DNA of 64,000 nt. Origin: Lepisosteus oculatus (taxonomy: Eukaryota > Chordata > Actinopteri > Semionotiformes > Lepisosteidae). Positions 11,525 through 47,644 of this stretch are shown here, piece after piece. A program made the translations under genes and the position numbers. Location of the stretch: assembly GCF_040954835.1 (NCBI RefSeq), contig NC_090723.1, positions 9,946,001 to 10,010,000 on the forward strand. The letters are read 5' to 3'. The notes beneath the pieces were generated by a model that made no database searches, was not told the origin of the DNA, and saw only the letters and a list, made by a program, of their open reading frames with translations. Numbering within the stretch: position 1 is the stretch's first letter; each line of letters opens with the position of its first letter.

Positions 11525-13600
11525 CGAAAGACTGGGTGGGGCGGCCCATGGGCGTTTGTATCCTTTTGTGATTCATGCCTGCGTCCATTGAAAACGCCTG
11601 ACTGACGCGCTGCAGGTGAGCCCCCACCTACACCTGCCCGCGAGCCGCCGCCGCCCGCAGTCTGGCTGCGCTCCGCGTGAAGCCCTCACCCTCGGGTGTG
11701 TCTCCGCGAGCGCTGCCCCCCCATTACCCTCCTATTGTTTTCGGGCTCCACAACATCTGGTAGCCGGTCGGCAAAGTCGCGCATTCAGTTTTCCCTTTGA
11801 AAAGCTTTTGTGTCTCTTAGAACCTAACCTAATCACCCAATAATGCTTCATGCTGTATGTTATCTTATTACACAATAATTAGCAGAACATGACTGCATTT
11901 AATACAAGTCAACTATTATGGAAATAAAGAATAGCAGGGTTTTTATATCAAAATATCTGGATGAGAACGTGTTTCTCGGCATTGACTTGTTTCAATTGTA
12001 CCATTTTCTACGTTTAAACGCAATTGTTTATGTCCATATTATTGAGGCTGCTGATGTTATCAGTAAGAGTAACTCACCTAATAATGATTATTTCACAGAA
12101 AAGGAAACGAGATCAGAGCGATCTCCCACACGCACGTACTTGAAAGTAAGGTGTAGGATCTCGCTCCGGTCTCTTGTTTCCACATGACCGCGGGTGAGTT
12201 GCGCGCTTCAGACCCGACCTGAGCTGAGGGAGGAAAGGGGGTAAAAACAGCGTCTGGAAATACCGCCCCGGGCTCCGGGCAGAGAACCGAGACCGAGCTG
12301 CCGAACCGCCCCGGGCTCCGGGCAGAGAACCGAGACCGAGCTGCCGAACCGCCCCGGGCTCCGGGCAGTTGCGTAGCAGCCGGGGGGTCCACACCCGGAC
12401 CTCACTCTAGCATGTCTGGAAAAAGACATGTTCATTTCTGCTTTATTTTGTGTTATCTGTATGACAAGCTAATTCAAAAGAATGAAGTCGAATTTGTGAA
12501 ACTAAACACAGGAACACGACTGCCTGTCAGTTAACTGAGTGATCTAAGTATGTCATCCGGCCGTAACTTGAAACACAGGTTATCGAGCTCAACAGCGTGC
12601 CTGGGCAGCCTGTTCAAGACCCCCACCTCCCGTCCTCAGTTTTAAAAGGTCTCTTCAGTTTCCACGAGTGTCTCCTGGTCCCTGTGTCGTGCTCGAGACT
12701 ACGATTTAATCTTTTTTCATTGACAAACACGGGAATGGAGGGCGCATATAAACACATAGGCTATATGCTAGTGCTTGTGTACGTTTTTACAGCTTTACTC
12801 TTCACTGTCCGTTCGCCCAACATCCGACAATGCGAGCTCGACACAGCCTTGAGCAGTGCGTGAAGGACTATCCCCGGGATCACCCTGTTTGTTATTCCCG
12901 ATCAGGTCCCTTAGGTGACACAAAGAGAAAAACAATCACCTCAAACACCTCATTGGGGGTTCGCCTCTCTCATGAGCGATACCTGGCGCAAGGCCTAGAA
13001 AGGCTCTGAGAGGATTTCTCTCGACTGCTCTTAGCAGTGAGGCGGGATGCCCAGCAGAGGGCGCCGGAGCTCCCAGCCGGTCCTCGCACAGAGGCAGACA
13101 GACCGGACAGGCTGGGTGAGCCAGCTCCAGGCGCGGGGGGGCGGGGGGGGGCACTGTTGTGTTTGGTTGCTGCAATCAGACACAGACCCTGCGCCGTGCG
13201 GACAAGAGGAACTTGCCTGACCTCCTGGAGACCCTGCGCCTCTCGCTGTGCAGGAAGAGAAGGCAGCGACACCTGTAGTACCGGAATTCGGGAGGTGACG
13301 GGGATTCAGGTGGGAACGGCCCTGCGGTCAGTCCAGTTCAGGAGCGAGGCGGTGGGTCTGGGTGGAATATGCACTGGGAATCTGCATTCCCTCCAGACGA
13401 GAGTGACGGGGCTCGGCTGAGAAGCTCTTCCCCCACCTCAGAGATTCTCCAGCCACCCAGGACTTTCACAACGAAGGAGGAGTGTTTTCTGATATCCAGC
13501 ACCCATTTCTCCCTCCCCTTGCTGTAAAGTCGCCTACCATACCGACGCCCAACTGAGCTCTTTACAGGTATGGTCAATTGTTGTTTCCAAACAGCCATGT
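11525..13600. other. Upstream region of gene A and 5' flank of SINE copy 2
   Basis: Promoter flank of gene A, a 43-bp tandem repeat at 12257-12371, and GC-rich sequence at 13040-13270. No exon pattern found. Confidence 0.5.
12257..12371. repeat. 43-bp tandem repeat, about 2.6 copies, upstream of gene A
   Basis: The unit contains cgccccgggctccgggcaga and gaaccgagaccgagctgccg. Two full copies are identical and a third is truncated at the right. The block is very GC-rich and lies about 850 bp upstream of the gene A start. Confidence 0.9.
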
Positions 13601-14176
13601 CGGCAGCCATATCACCCTGCAACTCACAACTAGCAACCTGCTGAAGCTCAGCAGGTGTGAGCCTGGTCAGTACCTGGATGGGAGACCTCCTGGGAAAAAC
13701 TAAGGTTGCTGCTGGAAGAGGTGTTAGTGGGGCCAGCAGGGGGCGCTCACCCTGTGGTCTGTGTGGGTCCTAATGCCCCAGTATAGTGACGGGGACACTA
13801 GACTGTAAACAGGCCCTGTCCTTTGGATGAGACGTAAAACTGAGGTCCTGACTCTCTGTGGTCATTAAAAATCTCAGGTTGCTTCTCGAAAAGAGTAGGG
13901 GTGTAACCCCGGCGTCCTGGCCAAATTTCCCATTGGCCCTTACCAATCATGGTCTCCTAATAATCCCCATCTATGAATTGGCTACATCACTCTGCTCTCC
14001 TCCCCACTGAGAGCTGGTGTGTGGGAAGCGTTCTGGTGCACTATGGCTGCCGTCACATCATCCAGGTGGGGCTGCACATTGGTGGTGGTGGAGGGGATCC
14101 CCATTACCTGTAAAGCGCTTTGAGTGGAGTGTCCAGAAAAGCGCTATATAAGTGTCAGCGATTATTATTATCATTT
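13601..14176 (+). mobile_element. 5S rRNA-derived SINE, copy 2 (near full length)
   Basis: The complete order is visible: 5S head (gcagccatatcaccctgcaa, ctggatgggagacctcctgg), middle part (ggccagcagggggcgctcac, cagtatagtgacggggacac, aagagtaggggtgtaacccc), and tail (ggggatccccattacctgta, aagcgctttgagtggagtgt, gcgctatataagtgt) ending in (att)n. It lies between genes A and B and serves as the window's reference copy. Confidence 0.92.
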
Positions 14177-18900: not shown

Positions 18901-21900
18901 TCGTCAGCGGCCAGCTTGGCGTTGTCGATCTGCAGGAGGATCTTGGTGTTGTCCACGCGGGCAGCGTTGATCTGTGGGCGAGCAAGAGACAGGGTGAGCA
19001 CACACAGCACAGGGAGTAGGGGTGAGGGGCGCACAGCACAGGGAGTAGGGGTGAGGGGCGCACAGCACAGGGAGTAGGGGTGAGGGGCGCACACACAGCA
19101 CAGGGAGTAGGGGTGAGGGGCGCACACACAGCACAGGGAGTAGGAATGTGGGGCTCACACACAGCACAGGGAGTAGGGGTGAGGGGCGCACACACAGCAC
19201 AGGGAGTAGGGGTGAGGGGCGCACACACAGCACAGGGAGTAGGGGTGAGGGGCTCACACACAGCACAGGCAGTAGGAATGTGGGGCGCACACACAGCACA
19301 GGGAGTAGGGGTGAGGGGCGCACACACAGCACAGGGAGTAGGGGTGAAGGGCTCACACACAGCACAGGGAGTAGGGGTGAGGGGCGCACACACAGCACAG
19401 GGAGTAGGGGTGAGGGGCTCACACACAGCACAGGGAGTAGGGGTGAGGGGCTCACACACAGCACAGGGAGTAGGGGTGAGGGGCTCACACACAGCACAGG
19501 GAGTAGGGGTGAGGGGCGCACACACAGCACAGGGAGTAGGGGTGAGGGGCTCACACACAGCACAGGGAGTAGGGGTGAGGGGCGCACAGCACAGTGAGTA
19601 GGGGTGAGGGGCTCACACACAGCACAGGGAGTAGGGGTGAGGGGCTCACACACAGCACAGGGAGTAGGGGTGAGGGGCGCACACACAGCACAGGGAGTAG
19701 GGGTGAGGGGTGCACACACAGGACAGGGAGTAGGGGTGAAGGGCTCACACACAGCACAGGGAGTAGGGGTGAGGGGCGCACACACAGCACAGGGAGTAGG
19801 GGTGAGGGGCTCACACACAGCACAGGGAGTAGGGGTGAGGGGCTCACACACAGGACAGGGAGTAGGGGTGAGGGGCGCACACACAGCACAGGGAGTAGGG
19901 GTGAGGGGCGCACACACAGCACAGGGAGTAGGGGTGAGGGGCTCACACACAGCACAGGGAGTAGGGGTGAGGGGCTCACACACAGCACAGGGAGTAGGGG
20001 TGAGGGGCTCACACACAGGACAGGGAGTAGGGGTGAGGGGCGCACACACAGCACAGGGAGTAGGGGTGAGGGGCGCACACACAGCACAGGGAGTAGGGGT
20101 GAGGGGCGCACACACAGCACAGGGAGTAGGGGTGAGGGGCGCACACACAGCACAGGGAGTAGGGGTGAGGGGCGCACACACAGCACAGGGAGTAGGGGTG
20201 AGGGGCGCACACACAGCACAGGGAGTAGGGGTGAGGGGCTCACACACAGCACAGGGAGTAGGGGTGAGGGGCGCACACACAGCACAGTGAGTAGGGGTGA
20301 GGGGCTCACACACAGGACAGGGAGTAGGGGTGAGGGGCGCACACACAGGGAGTAGGGGTGAGGGGCGCACACACAGCACAGGGAGTAGGGGTGAGGGGCT
20401 CACACACAGCACAGGGAGTAGGGGTGAGGGGCGCACACACAGCACAGGGAGTAGGGGTGAGGGGCTCACACACAGCACAGGGAGTAGGGGTGAGGGGCTC
20501 ACACACAGCACAGGGAGTAGGGGTGAGGGGCTCACACACAGCACAGGGAGTAGGGGTGAGGGGCGCACACACAGCACAGGGAGTAGGGGTGAAGGGCTCA
20601 CACACAGCACAGGGAGTAGGGGTGAGGGGCGCACACACAGCACAGGGAGTAGGGGTGAGGGGCGCACACACAGCACAGGGAGTAGGGGTGAGGGGCTCAC
20701 ACACAGCACAGGGAGTAGGGGTGAGGGGCTCACACACAGCACAGGGAGTAGGGGTGAGGGGCTCACACACAGCACAGGGAGTAGGGGTGAGGGGCGCACA
20801 GCACAGTGAGTAGGGGTGAGGGGCTCACACACAGCACAGGGAGTAGGGGTGAGGGGCTCACACACAGCACAGGGAGTAGGGGTGAGGGGCTCACACACAG
20901 CACAGGGAGTAGGGGTGAGGGGCGCACAGCACAGGACAGGGAGTAGGGGTGAGGGGCTCACACACAGCACAGGGAGTAGGGGTGAGGGGCTCACACACAG
21001 CACAGGGAGTAGGGGTGAGGGGCGCACAGCACAGTGAGTAGGGGTGAGGGGCTCACACACAGCACAGGGAGTAGGGGTGAGGGGCTCACACACAGCACAG
21101 GGAGTAGGGGTGAGGGGCGCACACACAGCACAGGGAGTAGGGGTGAAGGGCTCCCAGCACAGGGAGTAGGGGTGTGGGGCGCACACACAGGACAGGGAGT
21201 AGGGGTGAGGGGCGCACACACAGGAGAGGGAGTAGGGGTGAGGGGCCCACAGCAGAGCTATTAACTGGCCTGAAGAACAGAAAATGCCAGATTCAATCTG
21301 AATACAAGCAAATTTGCAAGAAAGGGCTCTTTGACATCTCAGAAGACACAATCGCTTTTGTAACATTGTGAAGCAGCACGTGGGCAGCGAACTCTAACCC
21401 ACTAATGCCTCAGTGTGGGACAGTAAGATCGACCTGACAGCAGGGGCGTGTGAATGAGGACAGCAGCCAGTGAAGGGAAATCATGAGAGCTCCTTCCCTC
21501 AGGCGAGAGAAAACGCCTCCTGGAGGTAACGAGCTGGAGTCAGAGGCCATGGGCGCTGCTCTGTAATTACACACGACTCAGAGGGCAGGATGGCTTTCCA
21601 GCCACAAAAACAAATAAAAATTCTTGCTGTTAATTTTGCACCGGTGCTGTAAACTTTGCCAATTACTGGCAGGAGAAGCAGTGAATCTCCAGATGTTTGT
21701 CTCTTGCTCTCTTTACTCTTTTACTGGGCTTTTTTTTTCCAGCTGATCGGTGTTTAGTCTGGTTTCACCATCAGACTGCAGCAGGATCCCCTGACTCTGC
21801 TCCTCTAGGGCCCCTAGCCAGACGTGTGTTAAATCACCAATTTATAAAGACCGGGAACAATTAAACTAGGATCAGGTGAAGATGATTTTTTTAAATAAAA

Positions 21901-32106: not shown

Positions 32107-35100
32107 GCTGTTTAATTAATCACTCTGGAAATGTTCCATTACTTTAGACACTGGGGACCTTTGCCTTTCAGGATTACGGAGATGGTCTTAGAGTGCATAG
32201 GTGTGATGAAGTGTGGGAATGTGAATCGTGATTGTATGTAAGTTTTATGCAGGGTATCTTACTGAAAGTGTGCTTGGGCTGCAGCTGCTGGCGTGTGAAA
32301 CCTCAATGAGGAAGGAGTTAGAAACGAGATCAAACTCCGGTGTCTGCAGCACACGTGCTGCCCCTCCTCTCTTCGAGGGTCTTGGGAGAGCGGCGGACCT
32401 CTGACTGTCATGGTCAGAGTCCGAAGGTCACGGCCAGCCCATATATCGAGGCCACAGCCCTGGGAGACCCACTATTCCTCAGTCGGGAATCGAGGAGATG
32501 TGATTAATCACAAATTCTTTCTTTCCTTGTGTTTGGGTTAATTAATCCAAACATCAACCAGTTCAATGAATGACTTAATTCAGTACCTAAATTAGAACCA
32601 GACGGACTGTAACTCGTCAACACCAGCATAGGAGAGCTCCATATGAAAGGAGATTTGTATATTGATTTAGGATTGCTGTTTGTCATAGTGACCAATTAAA
32701 CATTGCAATGAAATGATTTAAAGGTGTTTTTCTGGCATGTTAGTCATGCTTGTAATTAAGGAAGCAAATAGGTTTGGTTGAGCCTCTGAGCCCCGTGCAA
32801 CACTTTTTCTCTTCCCCAGTGCATGTCTATGCGGTGGGAGAGGTTCCGCCACAGGGCTCCCCCGAGGGTGTGGAGCACTCTCAACTGCAGGACTGGCAGA
32901 GAATCGAAAAAACACACATCAGGGAGATCAATTAACATGCAGGGTTAATGAACCGAAGACTAACGTCAGCTAGTAAACTTGTCTTTTAAGGGCTCGGTTT
33001 TTAAAGGGACAGAGTTAATCACATTCCTCTGGGCAGGTGATCACTGTGGGCGCTCCTGGGCACAGACAGAGAAGAACAGCCGCTCTTTCCAACTTGGGCA
33101 GCTTGATTTTGTTTATTTTTTAAATTTGCGTCTTGACTTTTATTCCTAGCGTAAGATTTCTGCTGTGATTGCGTGTCTCTACAAGTCCAGAGAATTCAAA
33201 TAAGATGCAGAAATAACATCAAACCCTGTGGGCCCTGTTGGCTTATGGGCAGTCTTTGCTGGTACCTGCTAGGATGAGTAAAAATGCAAATAGGTAAAGA
33301 GATACATTACCATTGTCACGCAATTACAGTAGAACAAGCAAATCCTTTTCCGTGCTAAATAATAATAATAATAATAATTGCTTACACTTATATAGCGCTT
33401 TTCTGGACACTCCACTCAAAGCGCTTTACAGTTATTGGGGATCCCCTCCACCACCACCAGTGTGAAGCCCCACCTGGATGATGCAACGGCAGCCATAGTG
33501 CGCCAGAACACTCACCACACACCAGCTCTCAGTGGGGAGGAGAGCAGAGTGATGTAGCCAATTCATAGAGGGGGATTATTAGGAAGCCATGATTGGTAAG
33601 GGCCAATGGGAAATTTGGCCAGGACACCCCTACTTGATCACAGGCCAGGGGTTACACCCCTACTCTTTTTTTCGAGAAATGCCCTGGGATTTTTAATGAC
33701 CACAGAGAGTCAGGACCTCAGTTTTACATCTCATCTGAAGGACGGCGCCTGTTTTTACAGTATAGTGTCCCAGTCACTATACTGGGGCATTAGGACCCAC
33801 ATGGACCACAGGGTGAGCAACCCCTGCTGGCCCCACTAACACCTCTTCCAGCAGCAACCTTAGTGTTTCCCAGGAGGTCTCCCATCCAGGTACTGACCAG
33901 ACTCACACCTGCTGAGCTTCAGTGGGCTGCCAGCTGGGAGTTGCAGGGTGATATGGCTGCTGGCTCCAGTTATAAGACTGGAGAACTGGAGATCTGGACA
34001 CTTACACTTGTGACTGTGATTCAATATCTGTACTTATACTTATATCTATTTCAGTACTTAGAGCCATACCTGTATCAATAGGTGACCTCCCTCTCCACTT
34101 AAATGTGCACGTCTTGAAAGTTGCAAAGCCATACCTCGATAATTACAGGGCTTGGTAATTACTGTCATGATGTAATATTGTGTAAAGATTTTGCCTGTCT
34201 TTGCATGAATCCTCTAAATGATTATTTTAATGATATTTACAAGGGGTTCACAACCTGTAGCTGAAGTGTAATTATCTGTGCTGGGACTGTCAGTTTCTAA
34301 AATGGGACAGAGGGGTGATACCATGACAGCAGGAGAAGAAACAAGCCTGTGATCAAGTTTGTGAAATGTCTTGAAATTGAAAACCGATTGTAACATTAGA
34401 ACCAGGAAAACTTAAAGTGAGGGAAAAGTCAGCTATTGCACTGAACTGGTAGCATGAGGAGAGCCTGATGATACTTTTGAGAGCCTAAATGATCAACCTT
34501 ATCGAGGGGATCTCGTGCAGAGGGTGTTGCATCCGAGACAAGTTTCCCGAACTGATTATTCATGGATGAGAAAAGTTGGGAGTTGTTTCTTGGAACTCCT
34601 GGCTACTGGATAGACCTGTAATTACAAACAATAAAGCAGACTTGCAGTTTCCTAATACAGGGGCTAACCTTTTAGGTCTTTCAAATGTTCGAAAGCTCCT
34701 GTCAAAATTCCTCTGAGCCTACACGAACTTGTAGAGCTGAAGTTCCTTCTGTGTGTGTTTGTAGCAGCTCTTTGCTGTAATCTCTGGCACACTTCTGGGC
34801 TGCTGCTGGTCTTTCCTACTCATTGGCAGAATTTTCCCTGCTTTATTGTGAAAAGCCCTGCAGGCTCAGGGTGGGTGGGAGTTCAGGACTCAGTGCTCCA
34901 TCAATGTGGATCAGAACAAGGTGTCACAGGAATGTCTTCCCCATCACAGGAAGTCAGAGGGAGATCTTAAGCGGGAGGAACACTTTGTTTTACACTCTCG
35001 TATGGCCTGCTTAACGAGCTCCCTCTCTCAGCTAATCTCTTCTAATTGCGGTCAGGCAAGCCGTGGTGCAGCACTGCCACACGCCTGTTATGAGATCAGC

Positions 35101-37706: not shown

Positions 37707-40700
37707 TTAGATCTTCTGCACCACCTCCTCCACCCTGGAGGACACCACCCGCCCATCCACCACCTCCTCCACGATGGTCTGGACTTTCCGGGCCCTGCTC
37801 ACCGTGATCTCTGCAACACGGCCGGCGGCCGGAAACAGCAATCAGCACACGTTCAGCGAGGGGGAGGAGCTGGCCAGTTGATAATGGGCACAGAGACGAG
37901 ACCGCGCCCCACCCAGACAGGGGGAGGGGTGCCACTTACCCTTCGCCTGCTGCGCGATGCTCCTGCAACCACAGAGAAGGAAAGAGGAAGTCAGTGCGTT
38001 TGCACGCTCGCGCGCTGACCGAGCGGCAGTAACTCCACCCCCCAGCCCCGCGCGTTACCTGCTGTCCTCCCCGTCCAGCAGGCGGCGGTACATGGAGATC
38101 TCCCGCTCCAGGCGCGTCTTGATGTCCAGCAGGGTCTGGTACTCGTCGCCGTGCCGCGCGGCGTCGCCCCGGACCTGCGCCAGCTCCCCCTCCAGGCGGT
38201 GGACCACGCCCTGCAGCCGCGCCAGCTCCTCGCCGCGCCCCTCGGCCGTCTCCCGCAGGGTCGCCTCCAGCGCGGCTTTCTGAGGGGACAGAGAGAGGGT
38301 CAGCGCTGCCCTTCCACTCTGGCTGGAGCCCCAGGGCCCCGAGCTCTGCTTGCAGCTGCCCGACACCGATCATCACCCAGTTCCCCTCTCACGGCTCCAA
38401 CTGGAGCTCCGCTTAAAACAACAAGAAACACGCCTGCGTGTCCGAGTCCAGAACCCAATTCTTTGCAGGATTACAGCCGAGAAGCACCAGTCTGGCTCTA
38501 ATAACAATTATAATTAATAATAATTGCTTACACTTATATAGCGCTTTTCTGGACACCCCACTCAAAGCGCTTTACAGGTAATGGGGATCCCCTCCACCAC
38601 CACCAGTGTGCAGCCCCACCTGGATGATGCGATGGCAGCCATAGTGCGCCAGGAGAGCAGAGTGATGAAGCCAGTTCAGAGATGGGGGTTATTAGGAGGC
38701 CATGATTGATAAGAGCCAATGGGAAATTTGGCCGGGACACCAGGGTAACTACCCTACTCTTTATAAGAGAAACGGCCTGGGATTTTTAACGACCACAGAG
38801 AGTCAGGACCTCGGTTTTATGTCTCTAGTCTAAAACCATTCCAGACAGCTCTGTTTCTGCGTGCTGCAGCTCTGGGGCTGTGGTATTAGCGCCGCTGTGA
38901 GGAAGGTCAGTCACAAGGCAGCGTCCTGGCCACCCACCAGGCTGAGGAGGGACTGCAGCTCGATCTCCAGACCCTGGATGGCGCGCTTCAGCTCGGAGAT
39001 CTCCGACTTGCTGGACTGCAGAGCCTCTGTGCTCACTGACACCTGCTGGCTTAGGACATCAAACTGTGGAGAGAGAGAGAGAAGAGTGATTTCTGAGCTG
39101 CAGAAAGTGGTGAGGTTTCTGGGCCAAGCGCACAGGGTGCCAGCAGCTGGCCCATCCCCGCGGGCCGGGAGTCGCACCTTGCCCTTGTACCAGCCCTCCA
39201 TGTCCCGGCGGTTCTTCTCGGCGATGCCCTCGTACTGCGCCCGGATCTCCTCCAGCACCTCCATCAAGTCCTGCTGGGGCGCCGCGTCCACCTCCACACT
39301 GACCTGGCCGCCCAGCTGAGAGCGCAGCACCAGCAGCGCCTGCAGGGCGAGAGAGCGCGGGTTCGAGCTCACTGCATCCTTCGCCACTGAGCTGTCGGGG
39401 TAGCAGGGCCTGATGGGGTGGATGAGCTGTACAGATCAGAACCCCAGGAACGAAAGGCTCATTTGTTTTGATGGGGGTGGGAGAATTCCATCCTTCCAAA
39501 AGATCCATAAAAATCTGTGATTATTATTGCTTACACTTATATAGCGCTTCTCTGGACACTCCATTCAAAGCGCTGTACAGGTAATGGGGATCCCCTCCAC
39601 CACCCCCAGTGTGCAGCCCCACCTGGATGATGCGCCAGTCTGCTCCCCACACACCAGCTCTCAGTGGGGAGGAGAGCAGAGTGATGAAGCCAGTTCAGAG
39701 ATGGGGATTATTAGGAGGCCATGATTGGTAAAGGCCAGGGGGAGATCTGCCAGGACACTGGGGTTACACCCCTACTTTTTGAGAAACGCCCTGGGATTCT
39801 TTAGTGACCAGAGAGAGTCAGGACCTCGGTTTTACGTCTCATCCGAAGAATGGAGCCTTTTTACAGTACAGTGTCCCCATTGCTATAATAGGAGCATTAG
39901 GTCCCACACTGACCGCAGGGTGAGCGCCCCCCTACTGGCCCCACTAACACCTCTTCCAGCAACAACCTTAGCTGTCCCAGGAGTCTCCCCTCCAGGTACT
40001 GGCTGAGCTCCTGGGAGCTGCAGGGCGACACGGCCGTGATCTGCGCTGAGAATCAGGAGGAGAGGTGGATGGGGCTGTATTAAGGCGAGGTGACCGTGAA
40101 TGACCTGTTGAGGCGTCCCTCACCTCCTGGTGGTTCTTCTTCAGGTAGATGAGCTCCTCCTGCAGCGCCTCCACCTGGGCCTCCAGGGCCGAGCGGGTCA
40201 GCGTCAGGTCGTCCAGGACGCGCCGCAGCCCGACGACGTCGGCCTCCACCGACTGGCGCAGGGCCAGCTCCGCCTCGTACCTGCGGACCGGGGAGCAGGA
40301 CAGTGAGCGCGCTCAGGAGGGGCTTGAGCCGAAGAGCTGGCTCGGGTGGAGACGAGGGGTGCCTGATCGCTGGGCGTGGACAGTATTGGGGCAGGAGCCG
40401 TGGATCTGTGTTGGGACCAGTGCCCTTCCTCATTATAACACCCCGATTCTGAGTAGGGGTTAGTCATCACAGCTGGGGGCCTCATTCATGTATTCAACTC
40501 CTTCAAGGGGAACCAGCTGATCCCCAGAGGACACCAGTGAAGAGCGTTTACAACTAAAACTACGAGCAGGAGACAGTACGCCAGAGCCAGTGGTAGGGTC
40601 AGAAACCAGTTACCCAGCCATGTTATTGTAACGCAACAGGGGCTCTGGCGGGCGCCCTTGCCGCATTAGGTCGGCCCCCCACCGTCGGGGGCTCGAACCC

Positions 40701-43700
40701 GGGACTCCCGCATCACTCTGCATGGACCCAGCCCGGTGAGCCAAAGAGAGATTAGGCCGACCTAATGCGGCAAGGGCGCCCGCCTGAGCCCCCGTTGCGT
40801 TACATTGGTGTCAGAAGCGGGGTGGGATAGCCCTTCGCCGGGGACGGCGATTTAAGCGGGGGAGAGTGTAACGCTTACGGCCGACAGCTACTGTGTAAGA
40901 GCCGGCGTACCAGAGCAGGTGACGTCACCGCCCTTCCCTGTGATAGCAGGACTACAGCTACTGGGTTGCAGAAAGATCTCTCTTTGGCTCACCGGGCTCG
41001 GTCCCTGATGGGTGACGCGGGAGTCTAGGGTTCGAGCCCCCGACGGTGGGGGGCCGACCTAATGTGGCAAGGGCGCCCGCCTGAGCCCCCGTTCCGTTAC
41101 ATTAATGAAGCCGATACCCTGGCTTCTTACAAGACCCGTCCACAGCTCCTCAGATTAGTCACCTACTAGCTAATCGGAGGAGCTACATGGGTTGAACGAC
41201 TTATTTGTAAGCTATTTTAAAACGTGCGCCTCGCGTCAGATCAGATTCGGCGACTTGGCTGTGTTCTGATCCAATAAGGGATTAACAGTAGGCAAGAGGG
41301 GCCCATTTGTTTCTCCGTCCCGTTATTACTTTTTGTAAAGTAATTATAGTCCGCCGACGAAACAGCGCTCCCTCCGAGAATGATGTCAGAAGACGCCGAG
41401 CACTGCGATCCCCGGGAGACCAAAACAAAAGCGAAGGAATCTGCCTTCCGGAACGGGCTGTTCCCCGTACCGCCAGCAGGCGGAGCCAGAGCACCGTGAG
41501 GGAGGGAGCTCTGCGCTGCCCGACAGCGGCTCCGTCACCGCAGACGCCCGGCAGGTTAAAGCCTGAGGAGGCGGTTCCGGCCACTTCCGGGAGGGGAGGC
41601 GGGCGGTTTGGGTGATTTGAAGAATTTCAACAATACAGACCTGCCAGGACAGGGCGAGCTAATGGCACCTTTCCTTCTGCCAGGGTTCCTTTGGCAACAG
41701 TTTAGAGTTTCTCCACTCTAAACTGGTTCTGTGACTGTGGAATAATCGCATTTGGTATTCATAGTTTAAGGAAATGATCACCGAGTGTTTTCTTGTATCC
41801 CAGGGGCAACTTTGTGGCTGTTTCTTCCAGGAAAATTACACGAAAAGCGTTAAAGACAGTCAAGTGGGAAGCTTGTATAAGATTCCTCACAGCAGCCAGA
41901 TGCTCTGCCCAGGCCTGGTGCCTTGAACCTTCCTCAGCGCTGGACAGACTGGGGAAGATTCAAGACAGAGCTCTGGGGTCACTTAATATGACCAATATGA
42001 CCTAATTAACATGTCTTAATATGATAATATGACCAAAAAACTACCCCTTCTTTTTTGTACACTTCTCTTAGGCCTTGTGTTCTTATTTGTCGCATTCACT
42101 ATTTCCAAAATTAAAGACCGAGCACTTCAGCCCAAACTCCTGCTGCGCTCTTGTCATCTGGACTCATTCCTGACAAGACAGCGCCCTGCCGGGACCCTCG
42201 GCCCATCTGTCCCCCCCCCCCCCCCCCAAGACAGGACAGCACCCTGCCGGGACCCTTAGGCTCATCTGTCCCCCCCCAGACAGGACAGCGCCTTGCCGGG
42301 ACCCTCGCCCTCTCTCTCGCCCCCCCCCAGACAGGACAGCGCCCTGCCGGGACCCCTCGCCCTCTCTCTCGCCCCCCCCAGACAGGACAGCGCCCTGCCG
42401 GGACCCTCGCCCTCTCTCTCGCCCCCCCCCGGACAGGACAGCGCCCTGCCGGGACCCTCGGCCCATCTGTCCCCCCCCCAGACAGGACAGCGCCCTGCTG
42501 GGACCCTCGCCCTCTCTCTCGCCCCCCCCCCCAGAAAGGACAGCGCCCTGCCGGGACCCTCGCCCTCTCTCTCGCCCCCCCCAGCTGGCTCAGCCCGGTT
42601 CTCCGCACAGCCACTCCGAGCCGGCGAGGGCTCACTTGACTTTGAAGTCATCGGAGGCCAGTCGGGCGTTGTCGATCTGCAGGATGATCTTGGCGTTCAT
42701 CTGGGTCATGGCGCCGATCTGGGAACGAGCCGGAGAACAGCGAGAATGTGACTGGTCCACAACGGCCACCTCATTCCAGCAGCGAGGAAGACAGAAATAT
42801 TATACCAGACAGAAATACAATATCACCACAGCCCTGTTCCTATTTCTCTTCAGCCTGGGCTGTTCCTTTATTAGACCTTTCACAAGTCAAACTCCCCGAA
42901 TCCCCCTAAGCTCTCCGGCTGCCTGGGCGCAGTCAGGCGTGTTGAGCAGGGTGCGTGGTGCCGGCTTTGGGAAACGCAGGACGCTGCAGATCAGCCAGCG
43001 GGTCTCCGCTGAGCCCCCTGACAAACACGACGCCGGCGCTATTATACTGAGGGGACAGCGCCTTTTGTCCGTCGGCATGAGGAGACAATCGGCTGGCCGA
43101 CTTTGAAATGAGATCTGGATCCAAGTCGTCTTTCTGGTTCAGCAGCCGCTGAGAAAGAGGGAGACTTGACCGTTCGAAGGGGGTCGTTTTCATTCGTTTG
43201 ACCACGTCATTCATTTTTGTTCTCAGAACACACGTAACATTTGTCTGGGAGCCTCTAATGATCCGATAAGAAGCCGAGCCCAGAGTTGCGGACGGCGTTC
43301 TTACTTGTGCAGCCCAGTACAGTACAGTTACAATTTTCCTCATAGACACGGGGAACCTGATCCTTCCTCTCTCAGCCACACAGGTCACGCAGACAGAGCT
43401 CTCAAACCCTGGTCCCCCGCCCCCCTCTCCGTCCTCACCTGCTTGCGCAGGCCGGCGATGGTCTTCTCGTAGGCGCTGTAGTCCCGGGCGACCGGCGCTC
43501 TCTTCTCGTACCACTCCCGGATCTTCCGCTCCAGCTCGCCGTTGGCGGCCTCCAGCGAGCGCACCTTCTCCAGGTAGGCGGCCAGGCGGTCGTTCAGGTT
43601 CTGCATGGTGGCCTTGCCGTCGGCGCCGATCAGGCTGCTGCAGCTGCCCGCGGAAGAGCCCCCGCCGCCGCCGCCGTACAAGGTCAGGGGAATCGAGAGA

Positions 43701-47524: not shown

Positions 47525-47644
47525 TGTAACGCTACGGGGGTTACGGGTTAGCGGCTGCGGTCCCTACTCTTCACAAGTAAGGGCGGTGACGTCACCGCTC
47601 TGGTAAGCCGGCTCTGACGAGCAATGGAGCCCGTATGCGTTACA
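47525..47644 (-). mobile_element. Short relative of the TRIM LTR (solo)
   Basis: A 120-bp segment bounded by tgtaacgc and gcgttaca. Its reverse complement follows the left half of the LTR at 40867: agagccggc, taccagagc, then ggtgacgtcaccgccctt. It lacks the tRNA-like A/B-box part. It could be a solo LTR of a related subfamily or an internally deleted copy. Confidence 0.62.

Follow-up and report, generated by a model that had tools for sequence, protein, structure and literature searches.

Mirror-image insertions in a Helenus-like TRIM family with tRNA-type promoter motifs in its LTR, from a window of the Lepisosteus oculatus genome

Terminal-repeat retrotransposons in miniature (TRIMs) with a tRNA-type promoter are already known, also from fish. 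Helenus (TRIMp3; Kojima 2024, PMC10886601) comprises TRIMs with tRNA-derived sequence including A and B boxes in the long terminal repeat (LTR), and its hosts include coelacanth, sturgeon, paddlefish, zebrafish and other fish. According to section 3.5 of that paper the box motifs are TRGCY and YGG (A box) and GGTTC (B box). The paper further reports 4-bp target duplications in animals, tRNA-Leu among the vertebrate primers and tandem arrays for LTR-11_DR. A functional promoter for RNA polymerase III (Pol III) is treated as unproven in section 4.1, and a long LTR shared by such TRIMs and an autonomous partner was thought unlikely (section 4.2). In plants, the TRIM Cassandra (Kalendar et al., PMC7215508) carries a 5S promoter in its LTR and forms tandem arrays of LTR plus interior. 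Here we describe the segment 40627..41101 of a 64,000-nucleotide stretch of Lepisosteus oculatus DNA (contig NC_090723.1), called the window below. Our best explanation, which we consider probable as a whole, is that the segment is one old, damaged insertion of a high-copy, gene-less TRIM family of the Helenus kind, and that the mirror-image insertions of this family go back to first-strand cDNAs that stopped where the RNA has a self-complementary 5' end, served one another as primers and were then integrated.

The window segment is a mobile element with a complete right LTR and a left repeat that is not a matching LTR. An earlier note on this DNA had described two LTR-like repeats with tgtaac...gttaca ends; the right one is a complete LTR of this form, whereas the left repeat (40627-40804) is no direct copy. 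It starts with an inverted copy of LTR 110-235, that is of the R (repeat) and U5 (unique 5') parts, and 114 of the 126 bases at 40627-40752 are identical to the reverse complement of LTR 110-235, with 12 differences. This arm is joined through two filler bases to a short direct copy of the LTR end. The left part is without U3 (unique 3'), and the copy has a U5 end on either side and a foldback at the left. The inverted arm contains its own A and B boxes directed leftward (minus-strand starts 40743 and 40699), and the distance between the box starts is 44 bp in this arm as well as in the right LTR. The other structures that had been named were found in place: a primer-binding site (PBS) after the left repeat (the PBS-like TGGTGTCAGAAGCGGG from 40806), an interior of 62 bp (40805-40866) that ends in a purine tract before the right repeat, and A-box and B-box matches in the right repeat at tRNA-like spacing (40985 and 41029). 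The features are, with the strand given where there is one:

40623..40626: left flank TTAT, presumed 4-bp target duplication, matching TTAA at 41102-41105 in 3 of 4 bases
40627..40752, minus strand: inverted copy of LTR 110-235 (R-U5), 90% identity to the right LTR
40689..40699, minus strand: B box GGTTCGAGCCC of the inverted arm, from a motif scan of the window
40732..40743, minus strand: A box TGGCTCACCGGG of the inverted arm, from the same scan
40753..40754: filler TA at the foldback junction, read from the sequence
40755..40804, plus strand: direct copy of LTR 186-235, 48/50 bases (96% identity) as in the right LTR
40805..40866, plus strand: 62-bp interior, equal in length to the interior of ordinary full copies
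40806..40821, plus strand: PBS TGGTGTCAGAAGCGGG, from the sequence and a comparison of 24 distinct interiors
40855..40866, plus strand: polypurine tract AGCGGGGGAGAG ahead of the right LTR, little changed in the majority of the 24 interiors
40867..41101, plus strand: complete right LTR of 235 bp with TGTAAC..GTTACA ends; genome matches mostly full-length
40920..40927, plus strand: cAMP response element (CRE)-like TGACGTCA within the palindrome GGTGACGTCACC (LTR 52-63), from palindrome analysis and subfamily comparison
40970..40983, plus strand: site of the 14-nt palindrome AGAGAGATCTCTCT of sister copies (LTR 104-117); the window reads AGAAAGATCTCTCT, with one base changed
40970-40976, plus strand: probable RNA 5' end, in the first half of the palindrome site, as suggested by the mirror joints
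40985..40996, plus strand: A box TGGCTCACCGGG, from LTR 119 (motif scan)
41029..41039, plus strand: B box GGTTCGAGCCC, from LTR 163 (motif scan)
41102..41105: right flank TTAA, presumed 4-bp target duplication
47525..47644, minus strand: second family member, a solo LTR from an older subfamily, shortened by an internal deletion that removed the box region; flanks ATAT/GTAT

Foldbacks recurred in the host genome (1.2 Gb, 813 contigs), as seen with a junction probe and a locus map. Locus L027 consists solely of two inverted R-U5 arms, LTR 104-235 in both directions. In L031 an inverted R-U5 arm stands in place of the left LTR of a TRIM, L010 is a head-to-head concatemer, and in L013 and L092 a TRIM is joined head-to-head to a coding element of the Gypsy type. 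L010, L027 and L031 are the three foldbacks besides the window copy in which both ends could be read, and their outer ends carry perfect ATAT duplications. We concluded that the mirror form predates integration, because these duplications lie at the outer ends. The centre of the joint is the 14-nt palindrome AGAGAGATCTCTCT, located at LTR 104-117 in sister copies just ahead of the A box. Palindromes of at least 14 nt occurred by chance in 2.3% of 20000 shuffles of one sister LTR.

The exact 28-base R-R centre, which joins two R-U5 arms, was detected at 63 places: 34 on C1-C18 among the places listed, in contig order as far as C380, and, by subtraction, the other 29 on C35 and up. Normal LTR sites of equal pattern length, which carry both halves of the palindrome, numbered 1350. 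Opposite joints (U3-U3) at the same palindrome were found 0 times in the host genome. The polarity of 34 versus 0 has a probability of 6e-11 if both kinds had equal chance and the places were independent; two of the 34 centres lie only 2 kb apart on C11, so the places may not all be independent. At the 12-nt CRE palindrome, where right-hand arms only were searched, 0 joints were found. The two arms of a foldback are often not identical, with 9/122 differences plus 6 gap bases in L031, 8/125 plus 2 in L092 and 3/126 in L027, and together with the TRIM-Gypsy joint of L092 this points to two molecules in one particle. The two sides differed at LTR 120 in 6 of the 34 centres on C1-C18, which fits two molecules, later mutation being possible too.

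To describe the family as a whole we used the same genome; per DNA search only the best 40 candidates were scored. The LTR gave 2242 first-look candidates, and among the best 40 most were full-length at 91-94%. Ordinary copies are built of an LTR of 235 bp, an interior of 62 bp and a second LTR of 235 bp, and solo LTRs and tandem arrays with a spacing of about 298 bp were also present. On C1, 90 normal LTR sites among those listed fell into 72 clusters, 13 of them with more than one site. Full copies with two direct LTRs and 4-bp duplications, as the earlier note had predicted for a TRIM, were found. In a set of 85 distinct insertions in loci L001-L088, 47 were intact at both ends by a script rule, and the target duplication was perfect in 40 of these, matched at 3/4 bases in 5 and was below that in 2, one of which (L002) is a copy split by the script and flanked by GTAT on both outer sides. 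The remaining 38 were left uncounted, many because of poor 3'-end alignment of the older subfamily. Perfect duplications read ATAT in 26 cases, and CTAT, GTAT, TTAT, ATAC, ATAG, GTAC and ATAA also occurred. A central TA (NTAN) was present in all 40 perfect duplications of L001-L088, a marked site preference.

The divergence between neighbouring LTRs ranged from 1/234-235 up to 24/234, which suggests that activity of the family was probably long-lasting and reached recent times. The PBS reads TGGTGTCAGAAGTGGGAT in L014 and L031, a majority of the 24 interiors have a closely similar version, and its counterpart is presumably the 3' end of tRNA-Leu(CAA). The older subfamily (L040-L068) mostly shows 73-80% identity to the window LTR, and in most of its members the A box is TGGCTCAAGAGG and the B box follows the pattern GGTTYGAGTCC. 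An origin as an LTR predating the insertion of a short interspersed element (SINE) was considered for the 120-bp copy at 47525. This was rejected, since the older subfamily normally carries the box region, and the copy is a deletion derivative. The TRIM reading holds for the family, with its paired LTRs, 62-bp interior and solo LTRs; it does not describe this copy, in which the left end is a foldback.

Like Helenus, the family is a short non-coding LTR element with A and B boxes in the LTR, a tRNA PBS, a polypurine tract, 4-bp duplications and tandem arrays. We assigned it by described features, 4/6 of which it shares with Helenus (direct LTRs, boxes, PBS plus polypurine tract, 4-bp duplication). 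Its boxes contain TGGCT..CGG and GGTTC, spaced 44 bp apart in both arms, and these boxes and their spacing are the only signs of tRNA descent (ARAGORN 0 genes, no Rfam tRNA match up to E 10). The window copy differs from the Helenus definition in that the left LTR is a foldback. That the boxes lie in the LTR agrees with the earlier proposal of a vertebrate TRIM with a tRNA-type promoter, but the concept is not new, as Helenus is already in print. With Cassandra, as described in PMC7215508, the family has in common that it is a TRIM with Pol III-type promoter motifs in the LTR, their use being putative here, and that it forms tandem arrays; unlike in Cassandra the motifs are of the tRNA type and not of the 5S type. 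No 5S match was found by Rfam in 40500-41300 up to E 10, and matches above the gathering score within the window lie at 13599 and 33846 only.

tRNA-derived SINEs have A and B boxes at the head, a tail resembling a long interspersed element (LINE), variable long target duplications and no LTRs. The present element differs from these by its TG..CA LTR ends, PBS, polypurine tract and 4-bp duplications.

We infer the following order of events. The LTR would consist of U3 (about 1-104) with the CRE-like site, followed by R-U5 from 9-15 nt before the A box. A family RNA would start at LTR 104-110 and be primed by tRNA-Leu, and in sister copies its 5' end would be self-complementary (AGAGAGATCTCTCT, LTR 104-117). 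First-strand cDNA that reached this RNA 5' end would carry the palindrome at its 3' terminus. Two such cDNAs could then pair via their 3' ends, each acting as primer and template for the second strand of the other, and the product would be a linear duplex with a U5 end on each side. Integrase normally joins a U5 end on one side. Here it would insert the U5-U5 duplex with the usual 4-bp duplication. Mutual priming of this kind requires an RNA start within about LTR 104-110, because a longer cDNA would leave an unpaired 3' tail. The RNA most likely starts there, where a Pol III start would fall. Mutual cDNA priming would explain the R-U5-only polarity, the palindromic axis, the TGTAAC outer ends and the 4-bp duplications, and the joining of two cDNA molecules would explain arms that come from different subfamilies or from a TRIM and a Gypsy element. 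For the window copy, a strong-stop cDNA (R-U5) would have been joined to a longer cDNA (R-U5-PBS-interior-LTR), about 75 bp beside the axis would have been lost later or skipped in a jump, and two filler bases would have been added.

Locus L024 has another end at the presumed RNA start (1785-1920; C1:46235445-46235580): its left LTR starts at LTR 104 without an inverted arm, and the bases before it are unlike the ATAT after the right LTR.

Several observations weigh against this explanation. The window copy is without the perfect palindrome, its target duplication is imperfect (3/4), and foldbacks readable with both flanks number four only, the window copy included. Joints of the older subfamily were found 0 times versus 88 normal sites, where 2.2 would be expected at the rate of the younger one (P about 0.11), a shortfall that decides nothing either way. 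A tRNA fold went undetected in the searches given above. Comparison of the two subfamilies showed the A and B boxes to be no better conserved than random blocks, 10788/20000 random block pairs being at least as conserved. The position of the start is compatible with Pol III, yet it is also compatible with RNA polymerase II (Pol II).

Related systems have been described elsewhere. Self-priming of minus strong-stop cDNA is a topic of the HIV-1 literature, and abortive forms of this cDNA depend on the exact RNA 5' end (PMC4668388); those are described as abortive products, whereas the putative dimers of the present family went on to integration and are present in the genome as insertions. LTR complexes formed by template switching are described for Triticeae (Sabot and Schulman 2007, PMC1950507), and the word beginnings inverted and palindrom are absent from the main text of that paper. 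The main text of the Helenus paper (PMC10886601) likewise contains no word beginning with inverted, palindrom or head-to-head. The Cassandra paper (PMC7215508) never uses head-to-head or strong-stop; it has palindrom once and inverted 13 times, in the passages seen for inverted PCR and primers. Neither mirror-image insertions of Helenus or other TRIMs nor a tRNA-type promoter in the LTR of a Gypsy element came up in the titles and abstract openings listed by searches of the open-licence literature. The recurrent mirror joints, and a Gypsy element with the same tRNA-type LTR (see below), go beyond what we have found in print so far.

The joint of the window copy (LTR 110 to LTR 186 plus TA) might also be a direct template jump of reverse transcriptase and not a later deletion, which we regard as a serious possibility, short of probable. 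Asymmetric joints, with a gap in one arm, were found at 6 places (the window, C8 with L010, C32, one on C412 and two on C434). In the three readable events the right breakpoint falls at LTR 186-190, adjoining a G-rich run that could be a stall site, and the filler bases vary between the events, as would suit a jump. Against this, the asymmetric form on C412 and C434 has the same outer flank as copies with the perfect palindrome (L092-L096), and it is therefore a derived deletion there. Near 1540-1552 of L010 the joint reads ATCCCACTTCT, part of the PBS complement (tRNA-Leu 3' end); the jump in L010 may have used primer tRNA or the PBS as its template.

As to the promoter, A/B pairs of this form occurred 2 times in the 64-kb window, both within the element, compared with an average of 0.03 over 100 first-order Markov shuffles of the window. 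We concluded that the boxes are real as motifs, while their use as a promoter is putative. The start window LTR 104-110 lies 9-15 nt upstream of the A box. In tRNA-type promoters a Pol III start is expected at such a distance ahead of the A box. Transcription of the family by Pol III, read from the DNA, would be in line with this. The rival view is that the boxes are decorative, that a Pol II promoter in the LTR happens to start at LTR 104-110 and that the element is a TRIM of the ordinary sort, belonging to a Gypsy family; we hold this to be a substantial alternative, though not the favoured one. It is supported by the same two-box LTR preceding a gag-pro-RT (reverse transcriptase) element, which needs long transcripts, and by the CRE-like TGACGTCA, which is strongly retained (mismatch 0.04 in both subfamilies). 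Box conservation, being at the level of random blocks, also suits it, and was dropped as support for Pol III. The exact tRNA spacing of the boxes and the start at 9-15 nt ahead of the A box speak against a Pol II promoter, as does the window LTR, in which no TATA box and no AATAAA or ATTAAA was found. TTTT was absent from the LTR, the interior and 2030 bp of Gypsy interior, with only 0.64 expected in the latter, and this argument for Pol III was set aside as too weak.

The coding partner is a Ty3/Gypsy gag-pro-RT element that has the same full LTR as the TRIM, unlike what section 4.2 of PMC10886601 expects for Helenus. In L013 a reading frame follows immediately after the LTR end and PBS. Frames derived from L013 contain an aspartyl protease (PF13650, E 5.4e-07; 1.7e-06 for a longer frame) and the beginning of a reverse transcriptase of the Ty3 type (best match among solved structures 4ol8, E 1.8e-13); the gag-like frame gave no Pfam match at E 0.001. 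When LTR, PBS and gag start of L099 (C13) were used as query, a complete LTR with 97-100% identity was found directly before gag at 7 places, the query's own included, among the best 40 of 2387 candidates: two each on C18 and C445 and one each on C13, C3 and C14. In L099, where the LTR letters were read, both boxes are intact and the LTR is preceded by a TRIM unit; at the other places sharing of the whole LTR rests on 97-99% identity over the query. Besides the whole LTR, TRIM and Gypsy element have in common 17 bp at the start of the interior (PBS). Palindromic 5' ends of the gag element were seen on C11, C14, C1 and unplaced contigs, with arms that begin at query position 105-108. Transcription by Pol II from the same LTR would be the simple answer to how a multi-kilobase Gypsy element is transcribed. 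The earlier note had held that a PBS forming part of a longer ordinary retrotransposon would speak against a TRIM; the Gypsy element does have the PBS and the LTR, but the TRIM reading stands, because the genome is rich in TRIM copies that have a 62-bp interior of their own.

The head-to-head TRIM-Gypsy chimera was observed in L013, L089-L098 and L100 (C412, C434, C456, C498 and others) at 98-100% identity. The outer flank was the same in 9/12 chimera loci examined, two of which are one place. The gag-bearing copies on unplaced contigs are largely one insertion amplified with its flank, and the chimera there represents a large repeat array or a recent segmental amplification.

A further-reaching version of mutual priming is a standing second copying route, without polypurine-tract priming or second-strand transfer, common to the Gypsy partner and with the palindrome under selection. 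We consider this rather unlikely. The Gypsy partner would then use the same tRNA-type LTR promoter, mirror insertions would be a genomic read-out of RNA 5' ends, and the selected palindrome would perhaps also pair RNAs for packaging. The palindrome reads GGGAGATCTCCC in the older copy L045, GGGAGATTTCCC in most older copies and AGAGAGATCTCTCT in younger ones. Ty3 RNAs are reported to pair through short palindromes near their 5' ends (PMC11381356), which provides a lead for a packaging role of the palindrome in this family.

That the mirror joints were formed in chromosomal DNA, when neighbouring LTRs rearranged at a short palindrome through a cruciform or as inverted repeats, is very improbable. 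Short palindromes do seed inversions, tandem and head-to-head LTR clusters exist in the host genome, and one foldback was amplified along with its flank on unplaced contigs. A chromosomal mechanism at a palindrome should give both polarities, though, and only R-U5 arms were found (63 versus 0 at the same palindrome); the CRE palindrome with its tested right-hand arms gave none, and the outer ends of L010, L027 and L031 carry perfect 4-bp duplications. Such an origin is strongly disfavoured. An ordinary TRIM with two direct LTRs in the window, of the sort that occurs elsewhere in the host genome, can practically be dismissed and was rejected at this locus, since the left side is a foldback, inverted over 126/178 bp of the repeat.

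The element apparently sits in a keratin-type gene cluster; exons of Intermediate filament (PF00038) were found on the minus strand at 10894-63530 (5/5 frames tested). 5S rRNA-like repeats lie at 13599-13717 (plus strand) and 33846-33964 (minus strand), with Rfam scores of 53.2 and 48.1 bits, and about eight further 5S-like copies were detected in the window by BLAST, several with a shared body aligned over about 560 bp. By appearance these are a 5S-derived SINE of the SINE3 kind. A minisatellite occupies 18998-21251 (33 bp unit, 69 copies, 93% matches). A VA RNA-like fold on the minus strand scored 27 bits in Rfam, below the gathering score of 62, and was taken as the foldback hairpin. The RNA fold of LTR 110-235 was unremarkable (z 0.43), and an IMG/VR scan with a 20-base piece of the LTR gave 0 matches.

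The use of Pol III by Helenus-type LTRs is unsettled in print, and the mirror insertions give an indirect answer from DNA only, since in as many as 34 places on chromosomes they locate the RNA 5' end shortly ahead of the A box. The Gypsy element that shares the whole LTR is the likely source of enzymes for the TRIM, and it bears on how transcription is divided between Pol II and Pol III. If mutual priming is true, an LTR element whose RNA is self-complementary at the 5' end could make integrable DNA by a shortcut.

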